Shown here piece after piece: positions 5,381 through 40,233 of a stretch of DNA of 53,848 nt (positions are counted from its first letter, which is position 1; each line of letters begins with the position of its first letter). Source of the stretch: a virus; the IMG/VR virus record IMGVR_UViG_3300046454_000816, positions 1 through 53,848 of that record; one strand, given 5' to 3'. The translations under genes were made by a program, and so were the position numbers. The notes under the pieces are model-generated. The model was given only the letters and a program-made list of their open reading frames with translations, had not been told where the DNA came from and made no database searches.

Positions 5381-5441
5381 TGGGGTTCACTCCGTTTGGA
5401 AAGTGCCAATGGGCGCCCTTTCGAGCGCCCAAGGCCGTTGA

Positions 5442-6041
5442 TCAGATACCAGTGAAGTTCTTGGTGTTGACGTTGCTGAATGCAACCACAGCCCAGTCAT
5501 AGGGCTGGCCACTGGACAACGTCCCCTGCACGCCGGGCGGGAAGTTGATGATGCTGACGACGCGGAACGGATTGTTGGCGACGTTGCCGTTTGCCGCGCT
5601 CAGATAGGCGCCGGAGATGCCGTTGGCGGTATTGCCGACGCCAATGACAAAGCCAAGTGTGGAATTGACGTCGGCCAGCGCGAGACCAGTAGCGTCGGTC
5701 TGGACGACAAACAGCGAGTTGGGGTCATTGACGATGTACCCCTCGACGACATTGCCGGACGCGACATCGCTGCCCGGCCAGTAGTTTGACCAGACGGTGC
5801 GCTTTTGCGAGACGGAGAGATATTTGCAGCCCTGAAAGATGCCAGCGATACCAGTCGCGGCGGGCGTGGCGCCAGAAGTGACAGACTGGGCGACCGAGCC
5901 ATCGGCCTGTGGCGTCACAGGATCGCCATAGAAAATGGCGGGCGCGTTGTAATTGATCGCGACAGCCACTTGCTCATAGGTCGGGGCCGAGCCCAGACCC
6001 GAAAACTGACGGAAGCCGAAGGGAGCATTGATGTTCGCCAT
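5442..6041 (-). CDS. conserved capsid-adjacent protein
   Basis: A 199-aa protein beginning MANINAPFGFRQFSGLGSA, a start seen (from memory) in many phage proteins encoded just upstream of capsid genes. An ATG 13 codons into the open frame fits this family start. The body is beta-rich with few charges (GNVVEGYIVNDPNSLFVVQ). A decoration or head-fibre role is likely but unproven. A hairpin (GGGCGC with GCGCCC, about 5415-5430) lies in the spacer before the capsid gene. Confidence 0.5.
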   Translation of the reverse strand: MANINAPFGFRQFSGLGSAPTYEQVAVAINYNAPAIFYGDPVTPQADGSVAQSVTSGATPAATGIAGIFQGCKYLSVSQKRTVWSNYWPGSDVASGNVVEGYIVNDPNSLFVVQTDATGLALADVNSTLGFVIGVGNTANGISGAYLSAANGNVANNPFRVVSIINFPPGVQGTLSSGQPYDWAVVAFSNVNTKNFTGI

Positions 6042-10108: not shown

Positions 10109-13100
10109 CTCCCCCTTTGGGCCGTCAGGCGCAGCGCCTTGGCGACAGTATCATCTTGCTGCGGCGGCTGCACAAGCGTTTTGCCGCCCTTCTTGTAGCC
10201 TGACAGGCCGAGGGCCTTCAGATGCTTCTGCACGTTGAGCCCATGCGCGACACCAGCCATCATTTCTTCATTGATCGGCTGGATCACTTTTTGTTCCGTT
10301 GTCATTTTGTTCCAGCCGCTGCGCGCCTTGTCGTCAGCAGACATCGGGTGCATGACCCGGCCCTTGCGCGGGTTGCGGACGAAGTCGCGCACCACGTCCG
10401 GCAGGGCGTAATGGCGCAATACGGGCGGCAGATCGCCTTCATACTGGCCGCCGGTGGTCTCTTTGTAGGTGTTGTGCTCGAAATGCGAGGGCGTGGGGCT
10501 TCCGCCGGTCAATTTGACGATACGGGGACCAAGCATATTGCCCGGAAGGTGCAAAAGGTCGGGATGGGTGATCGCAACGCGGGTTTTTCCGATGTGCGGC
10601 ACGCCTTTTTGATGCCAACCAGCCTTGTCGAGGTATTTCATGATCAAACTGCGGTCAGCGCCGCTCAATTTGTCGCGCATAAAGTCGCGCGCCTCGACCG
10701 CATTGTGGATTCCGGGGAAGTGTTGCATCGATTCAGCGGCTTTGGCGCGGTTTTCGACGTCTTCGGCCTTGTTTCCAGTCACAAAGGCGCCGGATTTGAG
10801 CAAATCGCTCAGTTGATCCGCCACTTTCCTGTCCAACGGGTTCGCATGGAGCTGAGACATCACCGCATCGGTCATCTGCACCGATGAATCGACGCTTTTC
10901 GGTCCCATTGGGCTGAAATAGCCGTAAACATCGCCCTTTTCGCCCAGCTCCTTGACCAGATTGTCGATGCGCGTGGACGCGCCGGGCGCATTTGCCCACA
11001 CCGCGCCCTTGTTTGGCTCGCGCATGTAGTCGTGACCGGCGTGCAGATCGACATCCCAGCCCAATTTCTTGCCGCCGATATGCGTCAAGCGACCAAGACG
11101 CGAGCGATCGCCGCCCAGATTGATCAAATGCGCGCCCTGATTGCGCTTCAGGAAGTCTTCCCACTCCAAATTCTTGACTGGCTTGGTGGTCACGCCCGGG
11201 ATTGGGGCGACTGTGGACTGCATCTGGCCGATCGGCTGCTTGTCGCCTTTGAAATTCAAGTAGGACTGGCCCATGTCGCTGTCAAAATTGGGATGCACGG
11301 CGTGGGTTTTCTGCGCAATGTCGAGCGCCTGCCTGACCATGTCGGGGTTGGCGCTGGTCATCGACGGCGTATTTTTCAAATACTGCTGAACATCAGTGTC
11401 GCCTTTGCCGCCCCACAATTCGCTCGGCTGGAATATGCCGGACGACATCATGGCGTGCGTCATCTCGTGGCCAGCGAGCGGCGACTTTGGCGTCCATAGA
11501 CCACCACTAGCGCCGCCGGTGGGCGCGGCAGGGGGAGGAGCGCCGGGAGCGCCTCCGCCGAGGTCGCGACCGATCCGCCCGCCATCCTTGGCGTGGCGCA
11601 TGGCGTGCATCAGGTCTTGATGCGTGGTCTGCTCACCCGCCGCCTTATCCCAGATCGCATGATGGGCGAGGTGCTGGTAATAGGGCTCCAGCTCCTCGGG
11701 GATGCCCAGCTTCAGCGCGCGCTGCCGGGCGGCCAGTCGATCGACCGCCTGCTCTGCGCCGCCGACGCGCGACATCGGCTTGGTCGCCTCGCTGGTCGGC
11801 TTGCCGGTATTGAGGATGATCTGGCGCGCATCGAGCGTCGGCTGGTTGCCCATGCCCATCATCGAGCCGAGGAAGCCCGCCTTGGCGATGTTGACGCCCG
11901 GCACGCCCTTGATGAATTGCCGCCACATGGCCGGATTGGCGTCCTTGTGACGCGACGCCTGCACCATTTTGGAGACGTGGCCTTCCATGCCGGGCAGGTT
12001 TTCGGCCGCCCATTGCAGCCCCTTGCCTTCGGTGTCGTTCTGCTTGCCGAAGGGCCTGAACTTTTGCACGGCGTCGGCGATCGCGCCCGCATGCACCTTG
12101 CCGCGCTCGGCATGGTGCAAGTATTCCTGCCCCATCGGCGTGTGCAGCCACTCGCCCATCGCGCCTTCCGGCCGCAACGAGTCCACGCCTTCGGGCATCT
12201 GCCAGCCATTGGCCTCGAGCGTCCTGCGCGGCAGCGCGCCACGGCCCATCGAGGAGCGGGTGATCGCATATGCCTTGATCAGGTCGCGCGGCGTCAAGCC
12301 CTTGCTGGCGGCCTTGTCCGCCGTCTCGTTCATGAAATGACCGAAGTGCTGCACATGCGATGGAATCTCGCTCATATGGCCCAGATCGGCGTGGACGTCG
12401 GCCAGCGGACGCCATGGCATGTCGTGCAGCTTTTGCGCTGGTGCGTCCTGATAGCCGGACAGGTCGACCGGCGGCTTGATAACCTGCGGCGCCGGAGGCG
12501 TGATCAGCTGGCCGCCAGCATCGCGCGCGGCGCGCGGCGCGCGCGGCGGACTTGCGCCCTGCAAAGCCGCTGTCTGGTGCAGGCTCGGGTGCAGCTGGCT
12601 GGGATCCATCTCATGCAGGCGCGGCAAATCAGGCTGTGCGCCCTGCTGCATATTGAGCGCCTTGACTTCGTCGTCACCCAGCACCCGGTTGACCTTCATG
12701 CCGCCGGAAATCATCCAGCTGTCCGGATTATTGGGGTTGGTGGTGTAATTGTAAGTTCCGCCGTGCGGCACCCGATCGGTAATGTGTGCAGTGGACGGAT
12801 CGGGCTGGCCGTTGGCCATGGTCCGGGCATTGGCGTTGGCCTCAGACTGGACGTCCACGTCTGCCGGGTGTTCGACTTCGGCCCAGACATGCTCATAGGG
12901 CCGGTAGTTGACCGCGTGGCTCTTGTTCTTGGTCGATATGCCGCCGATGTGACTGGCGCGCGGCGCGGTGCCTGAGTGCCAGCCGGGCCGGAACGCCAGC
13001 TCGCCGAGACTGGACTGCACGCCGCCCTTCTCGCCCGGCTTGCCCTCTTCAGCCGCCAGCCATTTGCCGATCGGCACCTCGCGCGTGCGATGAACAAACA

Positions 13101-22835: not shown

Positions 22836-22879
22836 CAGCAAAAAAGTTATCCACAGGGCTAATTTTTCACAAAGTTAGA

Positions 22880-22908
22880 TTGACAGCGTATTCGCCTGTC
22901 GATAAGTT
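22880..22908 (+). promoter_or_regulatory. rightward promoter P2
   Basis: TTGACA (22880-22885), 17 bases, TAAGTT (22903-22908), then AGGGACAGTTGA. It faces away from P1 and precedes the gene at 22939. Confidence 0.65.
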
Positions 22909-22938
22909 AGGGACAGTTGATTTGAACGGAGCAAGCAA

Positions 22939-23181
22939 ATGACCATCACCACCGAATCCCTTCGCGTCTTCCTCGCCTACGCCAATGACGCCGACAACTG
23001 GAGCGGCACGCCGCTGGTCGGCGGCAACGTCGGCGGCTCTAAGGAAGAGCGCGGCAACCTCACCCAGCTCAAGCAGGCTGGCTTGATCAAGACCTTCAAC
23101 GATGATGGCGTCTGGATCCAATTCACCACGGAAGGCAAGGCGCTCGCCGCCGAGCACGGCATCGACAGCAGCCGGTTCTGA
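22939..23181 (+). CDS. small winged-helix-like protein
   Basis: An 80-aa protein, ATG at 22939 with GGAG upstream. The stretch GNLTQLKQAGLIKTF followed by GVWIQFTTEGKALAAEHG resembles a winged helix (recognition helix then beta wing). It could regulate the divergent promoters directly upstream. No family name can be given. Confidence 0.45.
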   Translation: MTITTESLRVFLAYANDADNWSGTPLVGGNVGGSKEERGNLTQLKQAGLIKTFNDDGVWIQFTTEGKALAAEHGIDSSRF

Positions 23182-23527: not shown

Positions 23528-23533
23528 TTAGAG

Positions 23534-23562
23534 TTGACACCCGAATACGCTGTAGATAAGTT
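23534..23562 (+). promoter_or_regulatory. rightward promoter P3
   Basis: TTGACA (23534-23539), 17 bases, TAAGTT (23557-23562), same hexamers as P2, followed by a related ATGACAGTT. It precedes the DUF932-like gene. Confidence 0.65.
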
Positions 23563-23610
23563 AATGACAGTTCAACGCGGCAAGACGCCGCAAACACCAC
23601 GGAGCACACC

Positions 23611-24732
23611 ATGTCCCTCGCCAACACCTCCACCCTGACCGCCGCTTCCGCCCAGTGGGCCTCGCGCCCCAACGACGAACGCTTCGTCAACCTCAACGAT
23701 CTGGCTGAGCATTGCTACAACCAGCGCGTCCGCTCAGCGGGCAAGGTCGTCTCGAGCCGCTCGATCACCTGCGAGCCGGTCGCCAACGCTGATGGCCGCA
23801 ACGTCGGCCTCACCATCGTCGGCAAGGCGGGCAACGCCGCGGCGCCGACCCACTTCGCCTTCGGCCAGCTCGCCAACCTTGCTGGCGCGCCCGCTGGCTA
23901 CCTTCGCACCCTCGACCCGGCGCTGGCCGCCGACTGCGTCAACTTCGGCCTCAAGGTCACCCGCGACGTCGCCGACGTCGGCCTGCTCCTTCGCCGCGGC
24001 GACGAGGGCTTCTCGCTCGACGCGGCGACCGGACCCAACTATGGCCGGGTCTGGAACACGGACATCGCCGACGCGCTCGTCGCCAACTTCGGCGACGGCA
24101 TCGAGGGCGACTGGCGCGTGCCGGGCGAATTTGGCAAGCGCGTTGACGTGACCAAGGCCAACACCACGCTTTATGCGGGCGATCGCGACATGTTCGTGTT
24201 CCTCGCCGACGAAGAGAACCGCATCACCCTGCCGAATCGTCGCGGCGGCATGATGGGCTCGCTGGCTCGCGGGTTTTTCGTGCGCAATTCCGAAGTCGGC
24301 GCGGGCATCCTCGAAATCACCGCCTTCCTGTTCGACTATGCCTGCTGCAACCGCATCGTCTGGGGCGCGCAGGACGTGAGCCGCATCGCCATCCGCCACA
24401 CCTCGGGCGCTCCCGATCGTTGGCTCGAGCAGGCGCTGCCGGTCCTCGAGACCTATCGGCACTCTGCCGCTTCGCCGGTCGAAGCCAAGCTGATCGCCGC
24501 GCAGGCCAAGAAGGTCGACAACGTCGAGGAATTTCTGAAGTCGCGCAAGTTCACCTCGAGCCTGATCGCCCGCGCGCAGGCTTCCCACGAGGCCGAGGAA
24601 GGCCGCCCGATGGAATCGGTGTGGGATGTGGTGACCGGCCTGACCGCCGCCGCCAAGGGCGTCCAGTGGCAGGACGATCGCGTCGCGATCGAGCGCGCCG
24701 CGGGCAAGCTGCTCGATCTGGTCGCCGCGTAA
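23611..24732 (+). CDS. DUF932-like phage/plasmid protein
   Basis: A 373-aa protein. Segments YLRTLDPALAADCVNFGL, MFVFLADEENRI, GFFVRNSEVGAGILEITAFLFDYACCNRIVWGA and AIRHTS resemble DUF932 (phage/plasmid-like) proteins, which are made early and have no settled function. It is the largest early rightward gene and ends at a strong terminator. The naming rests on recall of the family. Confidence 0.55.
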   Translation: MSLANTSTLTAASAQWASRPNDERFVNLNDLAEHCYNQRVRSAGKVVSSRSITCEPVANADGRNVGLTIVGKAGNAAAPTHFAFGQLANLAGAPAGYLRTLDPALAADCVNFGLKVTRDVADVGLLLRRGDEGFSLDAATGPNYGRVWNTDIADALVANFGDGIEGDWRVPGEFGKRVDVTKANTTLYAGDRDMFVFLADEENRITLPNRRGGMMGSLARGFFVRNSEVGAGILEITAFLFDYACCNRIVWGAQDVSRIAIRHTSGAPDRWLEQALPVLETYRHSAASPVEAKLIAAQAKKVDNVEEFLKSRKFTSSLIARAQASHEAEEGRPMESVWDVVTGLTAAAKGVQWQDDRVAIERAAGKLLDLVAA

Positions 24733-24804: not shown

Positions 24805-25014
24805 CTAATCCCTGCCGTGTCGCCACATCGTATCAAAATCAGCTGACGCAGCTGCGATCATCGCCGCCAGCACCGGCGCAAACGGGGCCAGCTGCTCCAC
24901 CCAGTTGGGATTGGCGCGATCGATGCCCAACTCTTCACACAAATCACGTATCGCTGCAGCTGCATATGTTCCGGCAGTCATGTGAGCCTGCCTCATGTAA
25001 TCGCCCGCATCCAT
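24805..25014 (-). CDS. 69-aa helical protein
   Basis: ATG at 25014 with AGGAG eight bases upstream. Mostly helical (AGTYAAAAIRDLCEELGI, FAPVLAAMIAAASADFDTM). No known family. It is a single leftward gene beside the iteron region, with a TATAAT-type promoter just upstream. Confidence 0.55.
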   Translation of the reverse strand: MDAGDYMRQAHMTAGTYAAAAIRDLCEELGIDRANPNWVEQLAPFAPVLAAMIAAASADFDTMWRHGRD

Positions 25015-25074
25015 CTCTAGTTCTCCTGTTTAGGCCACGAAACATATGCGTCACAGCTCACGCGCGCAATAGCG

Positions 25075-25116
25075 TAATACGACGTATTATAAGCTAAACC
25101 TTGAGCATATTAACAA
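25075..25116 (-). promoter_or_regulatory. leftward TATAAT promoter with palindrome
   Basis: On the minus strand TATAAT (25086-25091) has a poor -35 candidate (GTTAAT at 25109-25114, 17 bases). A palindrome TAATACG-A-CGTATTA (25075-25089) overlaps it and may be an operator. The plus-strand resemblance to the T7 promoter is only partial. Confidence 0.45.
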
Positions 25117-25195
25117 TCCGATTGACGCCAGATCCGATTTATGCCAGCATCCTTGGACTGCTTGAGAACCGGCTCGACCCGACTTGACCAGTACG

Positions 25196-25229
25196 AAAGC
25201 CGCCCCGCAAGGGCGGCTTTCAGCATTTT
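25196..25229 (+). terminator. hairpin with T-rich end
   Basis: AAAGCCGCCC and GGGCGGCTTT pair around CGCAA, followed by CAGCATTTT. It stands between the 69-aa gene and the iterons. It may end a short plus transcript or insulate the origin. Confidence 0.4.
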
Positions 25230-25235
25230 AGGGCC

Positions 25236-25608
25236 TGATCCACGTTGCAAAAATACCACACGGAACGTGGTTCAGAACGTGGTTCAGCTAAGTCATTGAA
25301 AACAAATAAGATACTGGCCTTGATCCACGTGAACCACGTGAGCCACGTCTTTTTCTCACTCGCACCCGCGTATGCATGCGCGCGCCCCCATCACATGACA
25401 TCACACACGTATGCGCATGTCACGTCGCATATCGTATGCGCTTGTCACATCGCACCCATACCAGACCAAAAAGACCCAGAGGTGTTTTACGTGTGTATGA
25501 ATCTATTTTATACGTGGTTCACGTGGTTCAGGTGGTTCAATGTATATAAGTAACTGATAAATAAGGGATTATTCTGATCCACGTTCTGATCCACGTTCTG
25601 ATCCACGT
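25236..25608. other. iteron cluster, candidate replication origin
   Basis: Twelve copies of a 10-base element TGAWCCACGT (one is TGAGCCACGT and one AGGTGGTTCA) lie in both directions: 25236; 25265 and 25277 (12-base spacing); 25321, 25330, 25339 (9-base spacing); 25512, 25521, 25530 (9-base spacing, opposite sense); 25575, 25587, 25599 (12-base spacing). An AT-rich stretch (about 25540-25575) separates the last two groups. Clustered iterons plus an AT-rich element beside replication genes are the usual signs of an origin. Confidence 0.65.
25408..25454 (+). repeat. 22-bp direct repeat pair inside iteron region
   Basis: Two 22-base copies (25408-25429 and 25433-25454) begin CGTATGCGC and differ at two positions. 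They sit in a CA/TG alternating tract between iteron groups and may be a second protein-binding site. Confidence 0.75.
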
Positions 25609-25656
25609 CCAACTTGGTTGCATGCTTTTATTTTGCAACCATAGATTGAACAGCCA

Positions 25657-25685
25657 TTGACGTTTTGTTTTCTCGGTATTACGTT
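25657..25685 (+). promoter_or_regulatory. rightward promoter after iterons
   Basis: TTGACG (25657-25662), 17 bases, TACGTT (25680-25685). It precedes the gene at 25712, whose ribosome site is GAAGGAG. Confidence 0.55.
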
Positions 25686-25711
25686 ATCCAGACCGCAGAA
25701 GGAGAACAAAC

Positions 25712-26083
25712 ATGCCTAACGATGATCTTAATACCCAGCAGCGCCTGCTCAGGATGCATGCGTTGGTGACCGAAGACCTGAAGCGCGCCGATGCGCTCGC
25801 GCAAAAGCTGGGCTTCGAAAATATTGCCGCCCTTGTGATGGACATGAAGGCGTGCGGGAAAGACCTCGGCTTCAAAACCATCAGGTCTTTCGCCAAAGCT
25901 CTGTGCGAGGAAAAGCACGTAAAAATCGTGGCCCTTGCAACCGTTGGAAAAACCATAGGCCAGAAAAACCCGCTCGCCAGAGTGCGCGCGCTGGCGCATC
26001 TGGCGCTGTACTGGGATGGCATGTTGGAAATTCAGAAAATAGCTGAGCCGCATGCGCTCAAGGTGATCGGCGGCAAAAAATAA
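25712..26083 (+). CDS. unknown helical protein beside origin
   Basis: A 123-aa, all-helical, basic protein (LLRMHALVTEDLKRADALAQ, FKTIRSFAKALCEEKHVKI, VRALAHLALYWDGMLEIQK). It has its own promoter and a strong terminator. Iteron binding is an attractive idea because it adjoins the repeats, but no DNA-binding motif is evident. Confidence 0.5.
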   Translation: MPNDDLNTQQRLLRMHALVTEDLKRADALAQKLGFENIAALVMDMKACGKDLGFKTIRSFAKALCEEKHVKIVALATVGKTIGQKNPLARVRALAHLALYWDGMLEIQKIAEPHALKVIGGKK

Positions 26084-26087
26084 AATT

Positions 26088-26117
26088 AGGGCCCAGCAAA
26101 TCTGCTGGGCCCTTTTT
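26088..26117. terminator. bidirectional terminator
   Basis: AGGGCCCAGCA and TGCTGGGCCCT pair perfectly around AATC, followed by TTTTT on the plus strand. On the minus strand it is followed by AATTTTATTTTTT. It lies between convergent genes. Confidence 0.85.
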
Positions 26118-29003
26118 CTACATGCTGTACGGCTTGCCGCCAAAAGCATTGCTGAACCCGCTGGATTTTTTCTTCTCTTCCTCAACGCCCTCGGCAATTT
26201 CCTCTATCTCGACCTTCAATAATTCCGCCAGCTCCTGCCGACTGGGAATAATCCATGGCGGCCGGAACTGTTTTCCATCCGGGCCGCGCTTGCCGCGGCC
26301 GGGCGCGCGGATGAAGCCATACTTGCCCAGCTTGAAGCCATCGGGCGGCAAGTGGGGCTCGACATAGCGCCCGCGCTGTCCCTTGTGCCACGTGGTGTAG
26401 GCGGTGTGCAGCTGCATAGTGTTAGCCTCTTTGCCGAATTGCAGGCCGTTAATCACGCCAAAGGAGCCCGACAGGACGGATTCGATCAGCCACGTCTTGA
26501 TATGGCCGGGGCGGCGCGACAACGCCTCCATATCGCGCCGGGCCTCATTATTCATCGGGCAATCGCGTTGCGGCACGAATTGCGACACGTCGCGCTTGAG
26601 CAACAGATCGAGAAAAGCCGCCGGGCCGCCGTTTTCAACTTGAGCGCCCAAGGCGGTAAAATATTCATTATCGCCTGCGCGAATTTCGTTCGGCTTGATC
26701 ACCCAGTGCCGGGCGTCGCCCTCCTCGATATGCGCCGCATGCTCCATATTCGACAGGATCACCAAATTGACCCCCATCGGGGATTCAAACTTTGAGCCAA
26801 ACTTGGGCTCGAGGTTCATGCGCTTGGCTGTCGATGCGCGCTTGATGGCATCGGCCATTTTCTGATTGCCCGCAAAAGCCGCCTCGTCGAGCAGGATGAA
26901 GCCCTTGCCGCGCAAAGTATCGTTGAAGCGACCGGCGAACGCCTCATCATTGGCCTCGTTTGCGCCAGCCTGCCCCCAGATCTTGAGCACCACCTGTTCG
27001 AAATAGATGCCCTTGCCGGTCTGGTGCTTCCCGGTGAAGACCACCCGGATCACCCGCGACGCCTCGCCGACATGCTGCACCTGCCACGCCTCAAGATCGA
27101 GCATGCGCTCAAATGCCGTCTCGTCGCCATTGCACAGCACTTCCTTGATGTGCTGCAGGATCAAGCTGCAATCGCCCGCCTTGGGATCGATGCCGAAGCC
27201 ATGAAACAGGTTCAGGACATCGTCTTCGACCGGCTTATTGGTGAACACGATGTCGCGGTAGGTGTGGATGCCGCGCCAGTCGCGCCACGCCTCATGCGCG
27301 CGCCGGAACGTCTCATCGCCGGTGACCGGATCGACATAGGCAATAAATTCGCCCGCGGTCGCCACCGCCAGCGCCTTGATGTCGAGCAGCTTGCCGCCAT
27401 TGCGATCGACCCACGCGGGCGGCAGGCCCGGCGCGCAAAAACGCGCATAGCGATCGTTCAGCTCTTCCACATTGATCAGATCGACCTCGACGCCCTCGAC
27501 AAACGCGGTCTGGGCCGCAGCCGCGCCCTTGAACTTAAAAAGCGCCAAGCGGACCGCCTGCCCGCCGCTCTCGCCGCGCATGACCAGATCGGCGGCGTAA
27601 TTGGCCATATCGACTCCGGCCATGCTGGGCAGCATCGCCAAGATCTGGCCGACCTGCAGTCCCTTGGGCTGAAGTCTGGCCGTCAGGGTCGCCGCCATCG
27701 CATCCCACATCGCCGCCAGCGTCTTGACGTCGATCGCGCCGACGCAGATCAGTGAATCGGCGAAAGACGCCGCGTCGAACACCATCTGCCGCTTGACCAT
27801 CTCCGTTTTCTTGCTGTTGACCACAGTGAGGATATAGTCGAGCACGCCATTGACCAGCTCCATCCAGATGATGGCGCTGTAGGACGGCCCGCCAGCGCCC
27901 GCGCCCGGTCCGCCGGTATTACCCCCACCCCCGGAGCCGCCAGCGCCGCCAGCGCCTGCCGCTGTCGGCCCAGTCCCCAATTTCACGCCCTGCTTTTCCG
28001 CCTCGGCCTGCCAGTTGGGGTTCTGCTTCTCGTGGATGTTCCGTTGGCGATCGCCGCGTGATTTGTTTACCCCATTCGGAAACTCATGCTCGGAAGCATG
28101 GGTCGCGTCATCGGGCATTGCAGCCGCGATCGACCGCTTGCACTGGTCAAGATCCAGAATGCCGCGCTTGATCAGCATGCCGATCTGCAGGCCCAGATTA
28201 TGGACTTCCGAGCCGCGGCCGGTGCCGGGCGGCTGGCTCGCCACCTGCGCAAGGCGACGCTCGAATAATCCGCGCGCATCCTCGATCATGTCTTCGGTGA
28301 TGTCGCCGGTGAAATCTTCGCCTTCGATGTGGTTGGCCTGCCGGACGCGGTGGGTCCAGCCCAGTCCGGCCAAAGTCGCCGACACGTCGAGCATCAGCTC
28401 CTCGAGGCTCGGCACCAGCTTCCAGCCCTGCGGCGGCGTGCTAAAAATATCGTTGCCCTTGCTGTCCGGCTCCCACGTGTAAAGCTGGCCGGTGTCCGGA
28501 TGAATGCCCGCCACCACCGCCTGCGACGAATTATGCGGCGCGCGGGCGGCGCGGCCGAGGATCTGCACGCCAATGCGCCGGGCGCCCAAATCGGGCCCGC
28601 TGTAGAAATTGAAATTGCGGTTGAACGCCTCGGCGATCGGCACGCGGATCGGGATGGCGAATTTCGGCCAGCGGCCTGTCCTCGAGGCGGCGTCGCCCAG
28701 CTTGGGCCGGACGGCGAAGGATGCGGCCGGAACGTCCAGATCGGCGTCGAACATCACCATGGCGGTGCCGTCGCCCAGATCCTGACCAAATAAAACGCCG
28801 AGATTGTTCCCGGCGCGGATCCTTTGCTCAAGAATTTCGAGCGTGTAGTTGTTGGTCTGCCAGCCCATTTCATAAGGGTCTTTGCCCGCGGTCGGCACCA
28901 GCTTGTAGCCCAGCCCCAGCAGGATTCTCGCTGCGGCGATCATGCGGGCGTGGTGGGCGCTCGGGCTGCTTCCACTGCTTCCTTGACCGTGCATGTTGTT
29001 CAT
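26118..29003 (-). CDS. primase-polymerase / SF3-type helicase fusion (NrS-1-like)
   Basis: A 961-aa protein. Residues about 25-200 are an archaeo-eukaryotic-type primase-polymerase domain: FDADLD holds the DxD pair (D86, D88) and VVAGIH has the partner His (H168). A Gly-rich linker (about 345-375) follows. The C-terminal half is a DUF5906/D5-like helicase with Walker A GKHQTGKG (658-665) and Walker B ILLDEA (D706, E707), then NLVILSNMEHAA. It would prime and unwind DNA at the origin next door. ATG at 29003 has AGGAGG upstream. Confidence 0.8.
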   Translation of the reverse strand: MNNMHGQGSSGSSPSAHHARMIAAARILLGLGYKLVPTAGKDPYEMGWQTNNYTLEILEQRIRAGNNLGVLFGQDLGDGTAMVMFDADLDVPAASFAVRPKLGDAASRTGRWPKFAIPIRVPIAEAFNRNFNFYSGPDLGARRIGVQILGRAARAPHNSSQAVVAGIHPDTGQLYTWEPDSKGNDIFSTPPQGWKLVPSLEELMLDVSATLAGLGWTHRVRQANHIEGEDFTGDITEDMIEDARGLFERRLAQVASQPPGTGRGSEVHNLGLQIGMLIKRGILDLDQCKRSIAAAMPDDATHASEHEFPNGVNKSRGDRQRNIHEKQNPNWQAEAEKQGVKLGTGPTAAGAGGAGGSGGGGNTGGPGAGAGGPSYSAIIWMELVNGVLDYILTVVNSKKTEMVKRQMVFDAASFADSLICVGAIDVKTLAAMWDAMAATLTARLQPKGLQVGQILAMLPSMAGVDMANYAADLVMRGESGGQAVRLALFKFKGAAAAQTAFVEGVEVDLINVEELNDRYARFCAPGLPPAWVDRNGGKLLDIKALAVATAGEFIAYVDPVTGDETFRRAHEAWRDWRGIHTYRDIVFTNKPVEDDVLNLFHGFGIDPKAGDCSLILQHIKEVLCNGDETAFERMLDLEAWQVQHVGEASRVIRVVFTGKHQTGKGIYFEQVVLKIWGQAGANEANDEAFAGRFNDTLRGKGFILLDEAAFAGNQKMADAIKRASTAKRMNLEPKFGSKFESPMGVNLVILSNMEHAAHIEEGDARHWVIKPNEIRAGDNEYFTALGAQVENGGPAAFLDLLLKRDVSQFVPQRDCPMNNEARRDMEALSRRPGHIKTWLIESVLSGSFGVINGLQFGKEANTMQLHTAYTTWHKGQRGRYVEPHLPPDGFKLGKYGFIRAPGRGKRGPDGKQFRPPWIIPSRQELAELLKVEIEEIAEGVEEEKKKSSGFSNAFGGKPYSM

Positions 29004-38599: not shown

Positions 38600-39286
38600 T
38601 CAGGTGGCAGCGGTGGTGGTGATTTTGGGGAGGCTCATGAAACAAGAAAGAAGCGTATCAATCACCTCCTTTTCAGTGGCTGCGGCCGAGGCACTGCGCA
38701 AGAGTTTCTTTTTCCGCACCAGCTTGTGCCTGAGCACAAGCTGAGCCGCGGCGTCTGAGAAAGGCATCGACGCAAAAAATCTAGCGTCTTCTGTCCGGGC
38801 GCCCGCCCTGCGCGCCATTTCGAAGCGTTCCTTCTGCAACGGTGTTTCCGTCGAAGGAGGGAGCCCCTTGGACGCAGTGTGGTGGCGATAGTGGTGACCC
38901 TTGGCGGACGCAGCCTCATGGACCGCAACTTGACTGCCCATGAGATTTGAATAGGCGCCGGAAAGCGCCGCGCGACTCAAAGTGTCCATAGGCGCGCGGT
39001 GCAGATTTTCCGCGAGCGGGATCGCCTTCAGCACCTTTTCAGGCGTGTCAGTCTCCCAGACGATGGCCGAAATCCGGTGCCAGCCTAACGCTCTGGCCAC
39101 ATCGAGCCGCACATGGCCCGCCAGCAGGCGGAAACGCCCATCGGGCGCCTCCACCAGCGTGATGGGGTTGATGAGCCCGACGTCTTTCATCGAAGTGAAC
39201 AGCCCACCATAAGAAGCCCGGCAAACTGTTGAGGCGGTTTCGTAGCAGTCAATCTTTTTGAGACTGACTTCCTTGTGCATGGGCAT
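38600..39286 (-). CDS. ParB N-terminal-domain protein
   Basis: A 228-aa protein, ATG at 39286 with AAGGAG upstream. Residues about 10-130 hold ParB/sulfiredoxin motifs: MKDVGLINPITLVEAPDG, LLAGHVRLDVARALGW (54-69) and IPLAENLHRAPM (89-100). No ParA gene is seen, so classical partition is unlikely. Phage ParB-like proteins often accompany methyltransferases. Confidence 0.65.
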   Translation of the reverse strand: MPMHKEVSLKKIDCYETASTVCRASYGGLFTSMKDVGLINPITLVEAPDGRFRLLAGHVRLDVARALGWHRISAIVWETDTPEKVLKAIPLAENLHRAPMDTLSRAALSGAYSNLMGSQVAVHEAASAKGHHYRHHTASKGLPPSTETPLQKERFEMARRAGARTEDARFFASMPFSDAAAQLVLRHKLVRKKKLLRSASAAATEKEVIDTLLSCFMSLPKITTTAAT

Positions 39287-39297
39287 GCTGTAGCTCC

Positions 39298-40233
39298 TTA
39301 GCGGTTAAACACCGTGGCGTCGAAAGTCAGAAAGTTGGTGCGGCGGCCGTGATTCAGCCGATCGCAAAGACCTTCGGCCAGATAACGGATGTTGCGCGAA
39401 CGCACGGACGCCGAGCGGCTCGCCGCCGCCATCATGGCCACGCGCTGCACCTCCTGCGCGCCGATCTGGAACATGACGTCAGTCCAGAAGTCAGTCAGGC
39501 TGTTGCCGTGAGTCGCGGCGGCAAGCCCGTAGATGGCCTCGAGAAGTTCGCGGATGATTTCCTTGCCGGGGCCTACGAGCTGCTGGCACTGGTGCAGCAC
39601 ACGCAAAAACTCATTGTCGTCGAGTTTCTTGTCGGCATAGAGGATCCGCACCTTTTCGATGCACTTGAGGATCGAGAAGCCATCCGGAACCGGCTCGCTG
39701 GCGTCAACACGACCGGGCTGCAGAGAGATGCAAGTCGCCTGCAGCAAAGTCAGCAGGGCGAGAGCCTGCGGATTGCCGCGGACGCACTCCATCTTGAACC
39801 GCGCGAAAGGCTTGAGCGCCGTGCGCGTCTGGTTCAGCTCCTTATACAGCTCCGCCTCTTCTTCGTGGGTCAGCCCCACGTAAAGCTTCACTTCGATGCG
39901 CTTGATCGGATCCTCATCCGGCACTTCGAACGAATTGCGCAGGCGAATAGCGAGCAGGCGGTGCTGGCCGTCGATCACATAGAAGCGACCATCGGCGCGC
40001 TTGGACACGTGCAATTCGACCAGACTCAGGTTGAGATTGCAGGCGATGTCGTTCACGGCGGTGGTGTTGATTTCAGTGCGCTGGTAGAGGTGCTCGATGT
40101 GCAGATCGGCGATGTCCACCTCAACAGTCGGGGCGGAAGCACGAAGCGCGCGGATGTTGCGCTTGGTCTTTTTTATCCTGACGATTTTCTGGCGAACGGT
40201 CTCTTTTCCGGAAGATTTCGTGTCCAAGTTCAT
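39298..40233 (-). CDS. DGQHR-domain ParB-like protein
   Basis: A 311-aa protein with FYVIDGQHRLLA (DGQHR at 88-92) and LYVGLTHEEEAELYKELNQTR, the hallmarks of DGQHR proteins (ParB-like, related to DndB). The C-terminal half is helical. DndB represses DNA phosphorothioation genes, and other members lack known roles. It is the first leftward gene after the operator-bearing spacer. Confidence 0.7.
   Translation of the reverse strand: MNLDTKSSGKETVRQKIVRIKKTKRNIRALRASAPTVEVDIADLHIEHLYQRTEINTTAVNDIACNLNLSLVELHVSKRADGRFYVIDGQHRLLAIRLRNSFEVPDEDPIKRIEVKLYVGLTHEEEAELYKELNQTRTALKPFARFKMECVRGNPQALALLTLLQATCISLQPGRVDASEPVPDGFSILKCIEKVRILYADKKLDDNEFLRVLHQCQQLVGPGKEIIRELLEAIYGLAAATHGNSLTDFWTDVMFQIGAQEVQRVAMMAAASRSASVRSRNIRYLAEGLCDRLNHGRRTNFLTFDATVFNR

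Follow-up and report, generated by a model that had tools for sequence, protein, structure and literature searches.

A mirrored iteron array beside the primase-helicase gene of a tailed phage as a probable replication origin of the P4 alpha/SaPI Rep type

What does a dense cluster of short, phased repeats do next to the primase-helicase gene of a tailed phage? The question is posed by positions 25236-25608 of IMGVR_UViG_3300046454_000816, an IMG/VR virus record whose entire 53,848 bases were analysed and are called the window here. The record encodes terminase, portal and PolA, and its source is an autonomous tailed phage. A preliminary description of this DNA had read the cluster as an iteron origin. 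Our analysis indicates that the array is probably a replication origin, or the cis-acting part of one on which the initiator is loaded, of the type served by P4 alpha and the Rep proteins of the Staphylococcus aureus pathogenicity islands (SaPIs), and that it is most likely worked by the phage's own primase-helicase. New here would be a variant of the origin type of P4 and the phage-inducible chromosomal islands (PICIs) in an autonomous tailed phage.

The array consists of ten exact and two one-mismatch copies of TGAWCCACGT (the latter at 25339, TGAGCCACGT, and at 25530, TGAACCACCT), every one within 25236-25608, which bears out the twelve copies, five groups, 9- and 12-bp phasing and two orientations already described. 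Copies start at 25236 (+); 25265 and 25277 (-); 25321, 25330 and 25339 (+); 25512, 25521 and 25530 (-); and 25575, 25587 and 25599 (+). Over the whole window the motif has 16 matches at no more than one mismatch, against 4.2 expected and a maximum of 11 in 100 shuffles; the four matches outside the array are scattered and single, and no second cluster of the motif was found in the window. In a neutral k-mer scan, no other part of the 53.8-kb record was as dense in clustered repeats as 25236-25608. To the earlier observations we add a mirror symmetry: about an axis near 25430, 10 of the 12 copies are paired with a copy of opposite orientation, a number reached 5 times when these five groups were placed at random 1000 times. 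The order from left to right is array B (-, 12-bp phased), AT-rich DNA, array C (+, 9-bp), an alternating tract, array D (-, 9-bp), AT-rich DNA and array E (+, 12-bp), and the arms are complementary at 92% (B/E) and 90% (C/D). The CA/TG tract noted earlier is real, with 25395-25455 the most purine-pyrimidine-alternating 60 bp of the record (0.85 against a mean of 0.52, standard deviation 0.067). The elements of the locus are as follows.

25195..25221, no strand: inverted repeat with an 11-bp perfect stem; terminator-like left boundary
25236..25245, + strand: iteron copy A (TGATCCACGT), not part of the mirrored set
25265..25286, - strand: array B, two iterons 12-bp phased; inverted match to array E, 92%
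25288..25320, no strand: AT-rich spacer 1, read directly from the letters; candidate unwinding element
25321..25348, + strand: array C, three iterons 9-bp phased; inverted match to array D, 90%
25350..25465, no strand: central alternating purine-pyrimidine (CA/TG, GC) tract, the record's strongest; mirror axis near 25430
25512..25539, - strand: array D, three iterons 9-bp phased; inverted match to array C
25540..25574, no strand: AT-rich spacer 2, with AATAAGGGATT, which is common to contig L016 at 5508-5518
25575..25608, + strand: array E, three iterons 12-bp phased, the third without a mirror partner

These elements occupy a gap of about 700 bp, from 25014 to 25712, in which the GC content is 0.50 against about 0.61. 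The array lies 510-880 bp beyond the stop of the primase gene, with one convergent gene for a 123-amino-acid (aa) protein between them.

26118..29003, - strand: primase-helicase, 961 aa, proposed iteron-binding initiator, with a PrimPol-like N-terminal half, an SF3 DUF5906 half and a C-terminal tail

The preliminary description held that no initiator adjoins the array except the 123-aa protein. This is probably wrong, since the primase-helicase itself belongs to an initiator class, that of NrS-1, SaPI5 PriRep and P4 alpha. Residues 1-507 form a PrimPol-like half homologous to that of contig L016, and residues 498-846 an SF3 DUF5906 helicase half homologous to that of contig L051; PF19263 matches the window protein at E 1e-12. 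Pfam Prim-Pol has no match in the window, and the PrimPol label follows from homology to L037-L043 and phage BPP-1, of which those scanned (L037-L039 and BPP-1) contain PF09250. As a single query the 961-aa protein returned no matches, and a search of the viral contig collection with its N-terminal primase half found the contig of L016 only. When modelled, the C-terminal half resembles the SF3 helicases of NrS-1 and SaPI5 PriRep: the model (predicted local distance difference test score, pLDDT, 80) superposes on the C-terminal region of the NrS-1 primase with Z 24.1 over 336 aligned residues (root-mean-square deviation, rmsd, 7.2) and on the SaPI5 PriRep primase-helicase with Z 18.6 over 250 (rmsd 3.8). 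The NrS-1 primase-polymerase (6k9c, 6lrb) is the closest solved structure to this half, at Z 24; no origin of NrS-1 was found described in the literature. By domain match and modelled fold, the window protein belongs with the SF3 primase-helicases of D5/P4/SaPI5 class.

Taken together, these parts suggest how the locus might work. The primase-helicase would bind the 9-10-bp iterons, probably via its C-terminal region, and the mirrored half-arrays would nucleate two opposed helicase rings around the central alternating tract. The AT-rich spacer inside each half may then melt, the helicase rings would unwind outwards, and the primase half would prime for the phage PolA, so that initiation would take place at the array.

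Known systems offer close parallels. In P4, which we used as a control, alpha contains PF19263, and the annotated type-1 iterons of crr (CTGTTCACA/CTGTTCACC) stand 9 bp apart directly 3' of alpha and are followed by inverted copies, so that P4 shares with the window an SF3 helicase and 9-bp-phased iterons 3' of its gene, inverted around a spacer. Unlike the window, P4 is a satellite with another iteron sequence and a TOPRIM/zinc-ribbon primase half in alpha; its crr consists of two 120-bp repeats and its annotated origin is elsewhere. Iteron plasmids of the RK2, R6K and P1 RepA type likewise have phased short direct repeats beside AT-rich DNA, but their iterons are longer, at 17-22 bp. A Rep_3-type plasmid origin was considered and rejected: its initiator domain, PF01051, has no match in the record at E<=1, and there are no DnaA boxes in the array.

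The helicase fold is also shared with SaPI5 PriRep and the pri-rep-ori module of EcCICFT073 (PMC6092414, PMC7581432). Cch2 has been shown to recognise iterons immediately downstream of its gene through its C-terminal domain, and SaPI Rep is reported to do likewise (PMC7581432). The origins of SaPIs and other PICIs support replication, lie 3' of the gene as the window array does, and comprise an AT-rich region flanked by two iteron sets (PMC6092414). In the window, by contrast, an alternating purine-pyrimidine tract occupies the centre and the AT-rich spacers lie inside each half; SaPIs and PICIs are moreover satellites, whereas the window is a full phage in which a convergent gene intervenes. 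An origin 3' of the PrimPol-helicase gene has also been proposed for BPP-1/BIP-1 and plasmid pRN1, that of BIP-1 as a stem-loop without iterons (PMC4234260). BPP-1 (L133, 2606-2712; NC_005357, about 26605-26711) carries TTTGCCTCG repeats that are 9-bp phased, mirrored and, as in the window, separated from the PrimPol-helicase gene by a convergent small gene. In this model phage for diversity-generating retroelements, the mirrored TTTGCCTCG repeats are an alternative origin candidate to the published stem-loop (PMC4234260).

The layout recurs among the window's relatives. A search of the phage collection returned no close DNA relative, and the only near-identical contig, L015, stops short of the array. 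Contig L016 (IMGVR_UViG_3300034199_000005) is 71% identical to the window in TerL, 67% in portal and about 45% in the N-terminal primase half. Directly 3' of its primase stop it has ATCGTCAGCC repeats in both orientations around 5388-5448, where alternation in that record is at its highest (0.87), and it shares AATAAGGGATT with spacer 2, an 11-mer match with a chance of about 0.06 in mono-shuffles. The closest helicase relative, L051, is 37% identical, its homology being limited to window residues 498-846 and absent from PrimPol, and has ten copies of TGCGCCACGT, a 9-bp triplet among them, directly 3' of the helicase stop. L131, with a TOPRIM primase half and a helicase 40% identical to that of the window and 62% to that of L051, has 9-bp-phased ACTCAACGG 3' of the helicase gene. 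The array adjoins the 3' side of the gene directly in L016, L051, L131, S1, MJing1 and others.

An alignment search with the helicase found 80 loci, and 9-bp-phased arrays 3' of the gene occur in MJing1 (ACCCTGACC), S1 (CCGCACAC), L119 (AGATTGTTC), L057, L062 and others, looser arrays in L037-L039, and a similar layout with other repeats in several prophages. Among unbiased IMG/VR loci, 12 of 68 have lag-9 direct repeats no further than 350 bp from the helicase stop, against 48 of 1355 control windows (p=1.2e-5); lags 7, 8, 11 and 12 gave no significant enrichment in this set, and lag 10 a weak one. When the downstream regions of 94 helicase relatives were compared with shuffles, 20 surpassed all 60. 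The idea of an iteron origin beside the primase-helicase gene is therefore well supported by comparison (L016, L051, L131, MJing1, S1, BPP-1, prophages and P4), the remark on its initiator apart. Conservation in relatives, which the preliminary description had made a test of its reading, holds for position and layout, as in L016, and does not extend to the repeat letters, which differ in almost every relative. Our first idea, that the letters track the helicase half, came from the 8 of 10 letters common to TGAWCCACGT and the L051 repeat TGCGCCACGT, the L016 repeat being unrelated; L131 weakens it, and it is suggestive at most. These comparisons show iteron letters that change fast, and they do not establish that a given helicase is strictly tied to a given iteron.

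Two sets of observations concern the exchange of domains and the repeats of other contigs. A similar PrimPol half is fused to a DUF5906 helicase in the window and to a VapE helicase in L016, while the DUF5906 helicase is joined to PrimPol in the window, to TOPRIM in L131 and to a half without a Pfam match in L051. Pattern matches in L009-L011 were set aside, their number fitting the chance estimate and the contigs having no genes homologous to the window. An unrelated phage contig, L136, has at 11049-11182 an AT-rich stretch flanked by 9-bp-phased TGAACCACG and its mirrored copy; the contig has no gene homologous to the window, and the 239-aa protein encoded next to these repeats matches nothing in Pfam.

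Several points weigh against an origin worked by the primase-helicase. In the window the 123-aa gene separates the array from the primase gene, a clean GC-skew switch is absent at the array (skew being uninformative here), and the C-terminal tail of the protein is modelled with modest confidence. L016 has a VapE-type helicase half (PF05272) rather than DUF5906 (PF19263), and its iterons lack 9-bp phasing. The iterons of L131 and L051 agree at only about 5 of 9 positions despite helicases that are 62% identical; iteron identity is therefore not simply set by the helicase. By the shuffle measure, 74 of the 94 downstream regions have no array. Finally, the annotated P4 origin lies about 4.5 kb from crr and carries the same type-1 iterons, and an array of this type therefore need not be the start site.

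This last point, given the similar layout and position of crr, speaks for an element like P4 crr, or one for incompatibility or copy control, to which the primase-helicase would bind, with replication beginning at another place, as in P4, rather than at the array, as in SaPIs. We allow this a minor share of the probability, as no second cluster of the repeat exists in the window and the replication-supporting SaPI/PICI origins occupy the corresponding place. A smaller chance goes to an origin or cis element bound by another protein, be it the 123-aa protein, whose gene adjoins the array, the 80-aa protein encoded at 22939 or host DnaA. Seven of the nine letters of TGATCCACG agree with the DnaA box TTATCCACA, and two related primase phages, Pam3 and RHph_TM26, have a gene for a small protein with a DnaA domain; yet the record has no Bac_DnaA_C protein, a DnaA-domain query (Pam3, TM26) found no match in the six frames of the window, its sole consensus DnaA boxes (TTWTNCACA), at 22847 and 22863, are 2.4 kb off, and the repeats of relatives keep the layout but not the DnaA-box letters. 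The 123-aa protein gave no detectable relatives as a single query, and its single-sequence fold (pLDDT 65) is too poor for interpretation. Several relatives have no gene in its slot, and because the gene in the same slot of BPP-1 is unrelated to it, we argue that it is a passenger and do not consider it the initiator.

The position of the array upstream of the 123-aa gene would also suit a cluster of transcriptional operators for that gene or for early genes. We find this very improbable: promoter-like sites at the array do not exceed the shuffled expectation, twelve mirrored copies are spread over 370 bp, and L016 and L051 keep the layout without the 123-aa gene. A parS-like partition site has even less to commend it. 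The phage does encode a ParB_N-domain protein (38600-39286) and a protein that is ParB-like by PHROG (39298-40233), and the 9-bp-phased copies form TGATCCACGTGAACCA, which fits the parS consensus at 13 of 16 positions. This 16-mer, however, is formed by the 9-bp-phased groups and not by the 12-bp-phased ones, the repeats of relatives are unlike parS while the layout is kept, and neither ParA (PF13614) nor a tyrosine integrase was detected in the window. An origin worked by the primase-helicase thus remains our preferred explanation.

The surroundings of the locus include these further features.

23611..24732: 373-aa protein gene between the origin region and the late genes; PHROG 1362, weak DUF932 similarity
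25712..26083, + strand: 123-aa protein gene between array and primase, without relatives
26088..26113, no strand: hairpin resembling a bidirectional terminator, where the convergent genes for the 123-aa protein and the primase meet

A near-identical pair of promoter-like blocks (TTGACA...GATAAGTTAnnGACAGTT) at 22877-22925 and 23533-23575 precedes the + strand genes at 22939 and 23611, and L016 has a similar block at about 5732-5771. Also upstream of the gene at 22939, the record's only two TTWTNCACA matches (22847-22871) are the perfect DnaA box TTATCCACA and TTTTTCACA. In L012 (4070-4363) and L013 (4208-4441), both from related primase phages, a stand-alone DnaA-domain-IV-like protein that is absent from the window is encoded beside PolA. 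Rfam gave no match above the gathering threshold.

More tentatively, the DUF5906/D5-type helicases of phages and satellites may share one grammar, in which 9-bp-phased iterons are mirrored about a strand-opening tract 3' of the gene, the register is set by the helicase ring, and both the letters of the iterons and the attached primase, be it PrimPol, TOPRIM or another, are freely exchanged. The origin type regarded as "unique" to PICIs would then be widespread in autonomous tailed phages and readable from genome sequence. The origins of most tailed phages are unmapped, and if this layout marks origins, they would be predictable from the sequence beside a common gene, and every pair of initiator and iteron would be a ready test of recognition. 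With the 9-bp register constant, fast-changing iteron letters would open the evolution of initiator specificity to direct tests, and the presence of the layout in full phages would connect satellites and phages through one replicon.
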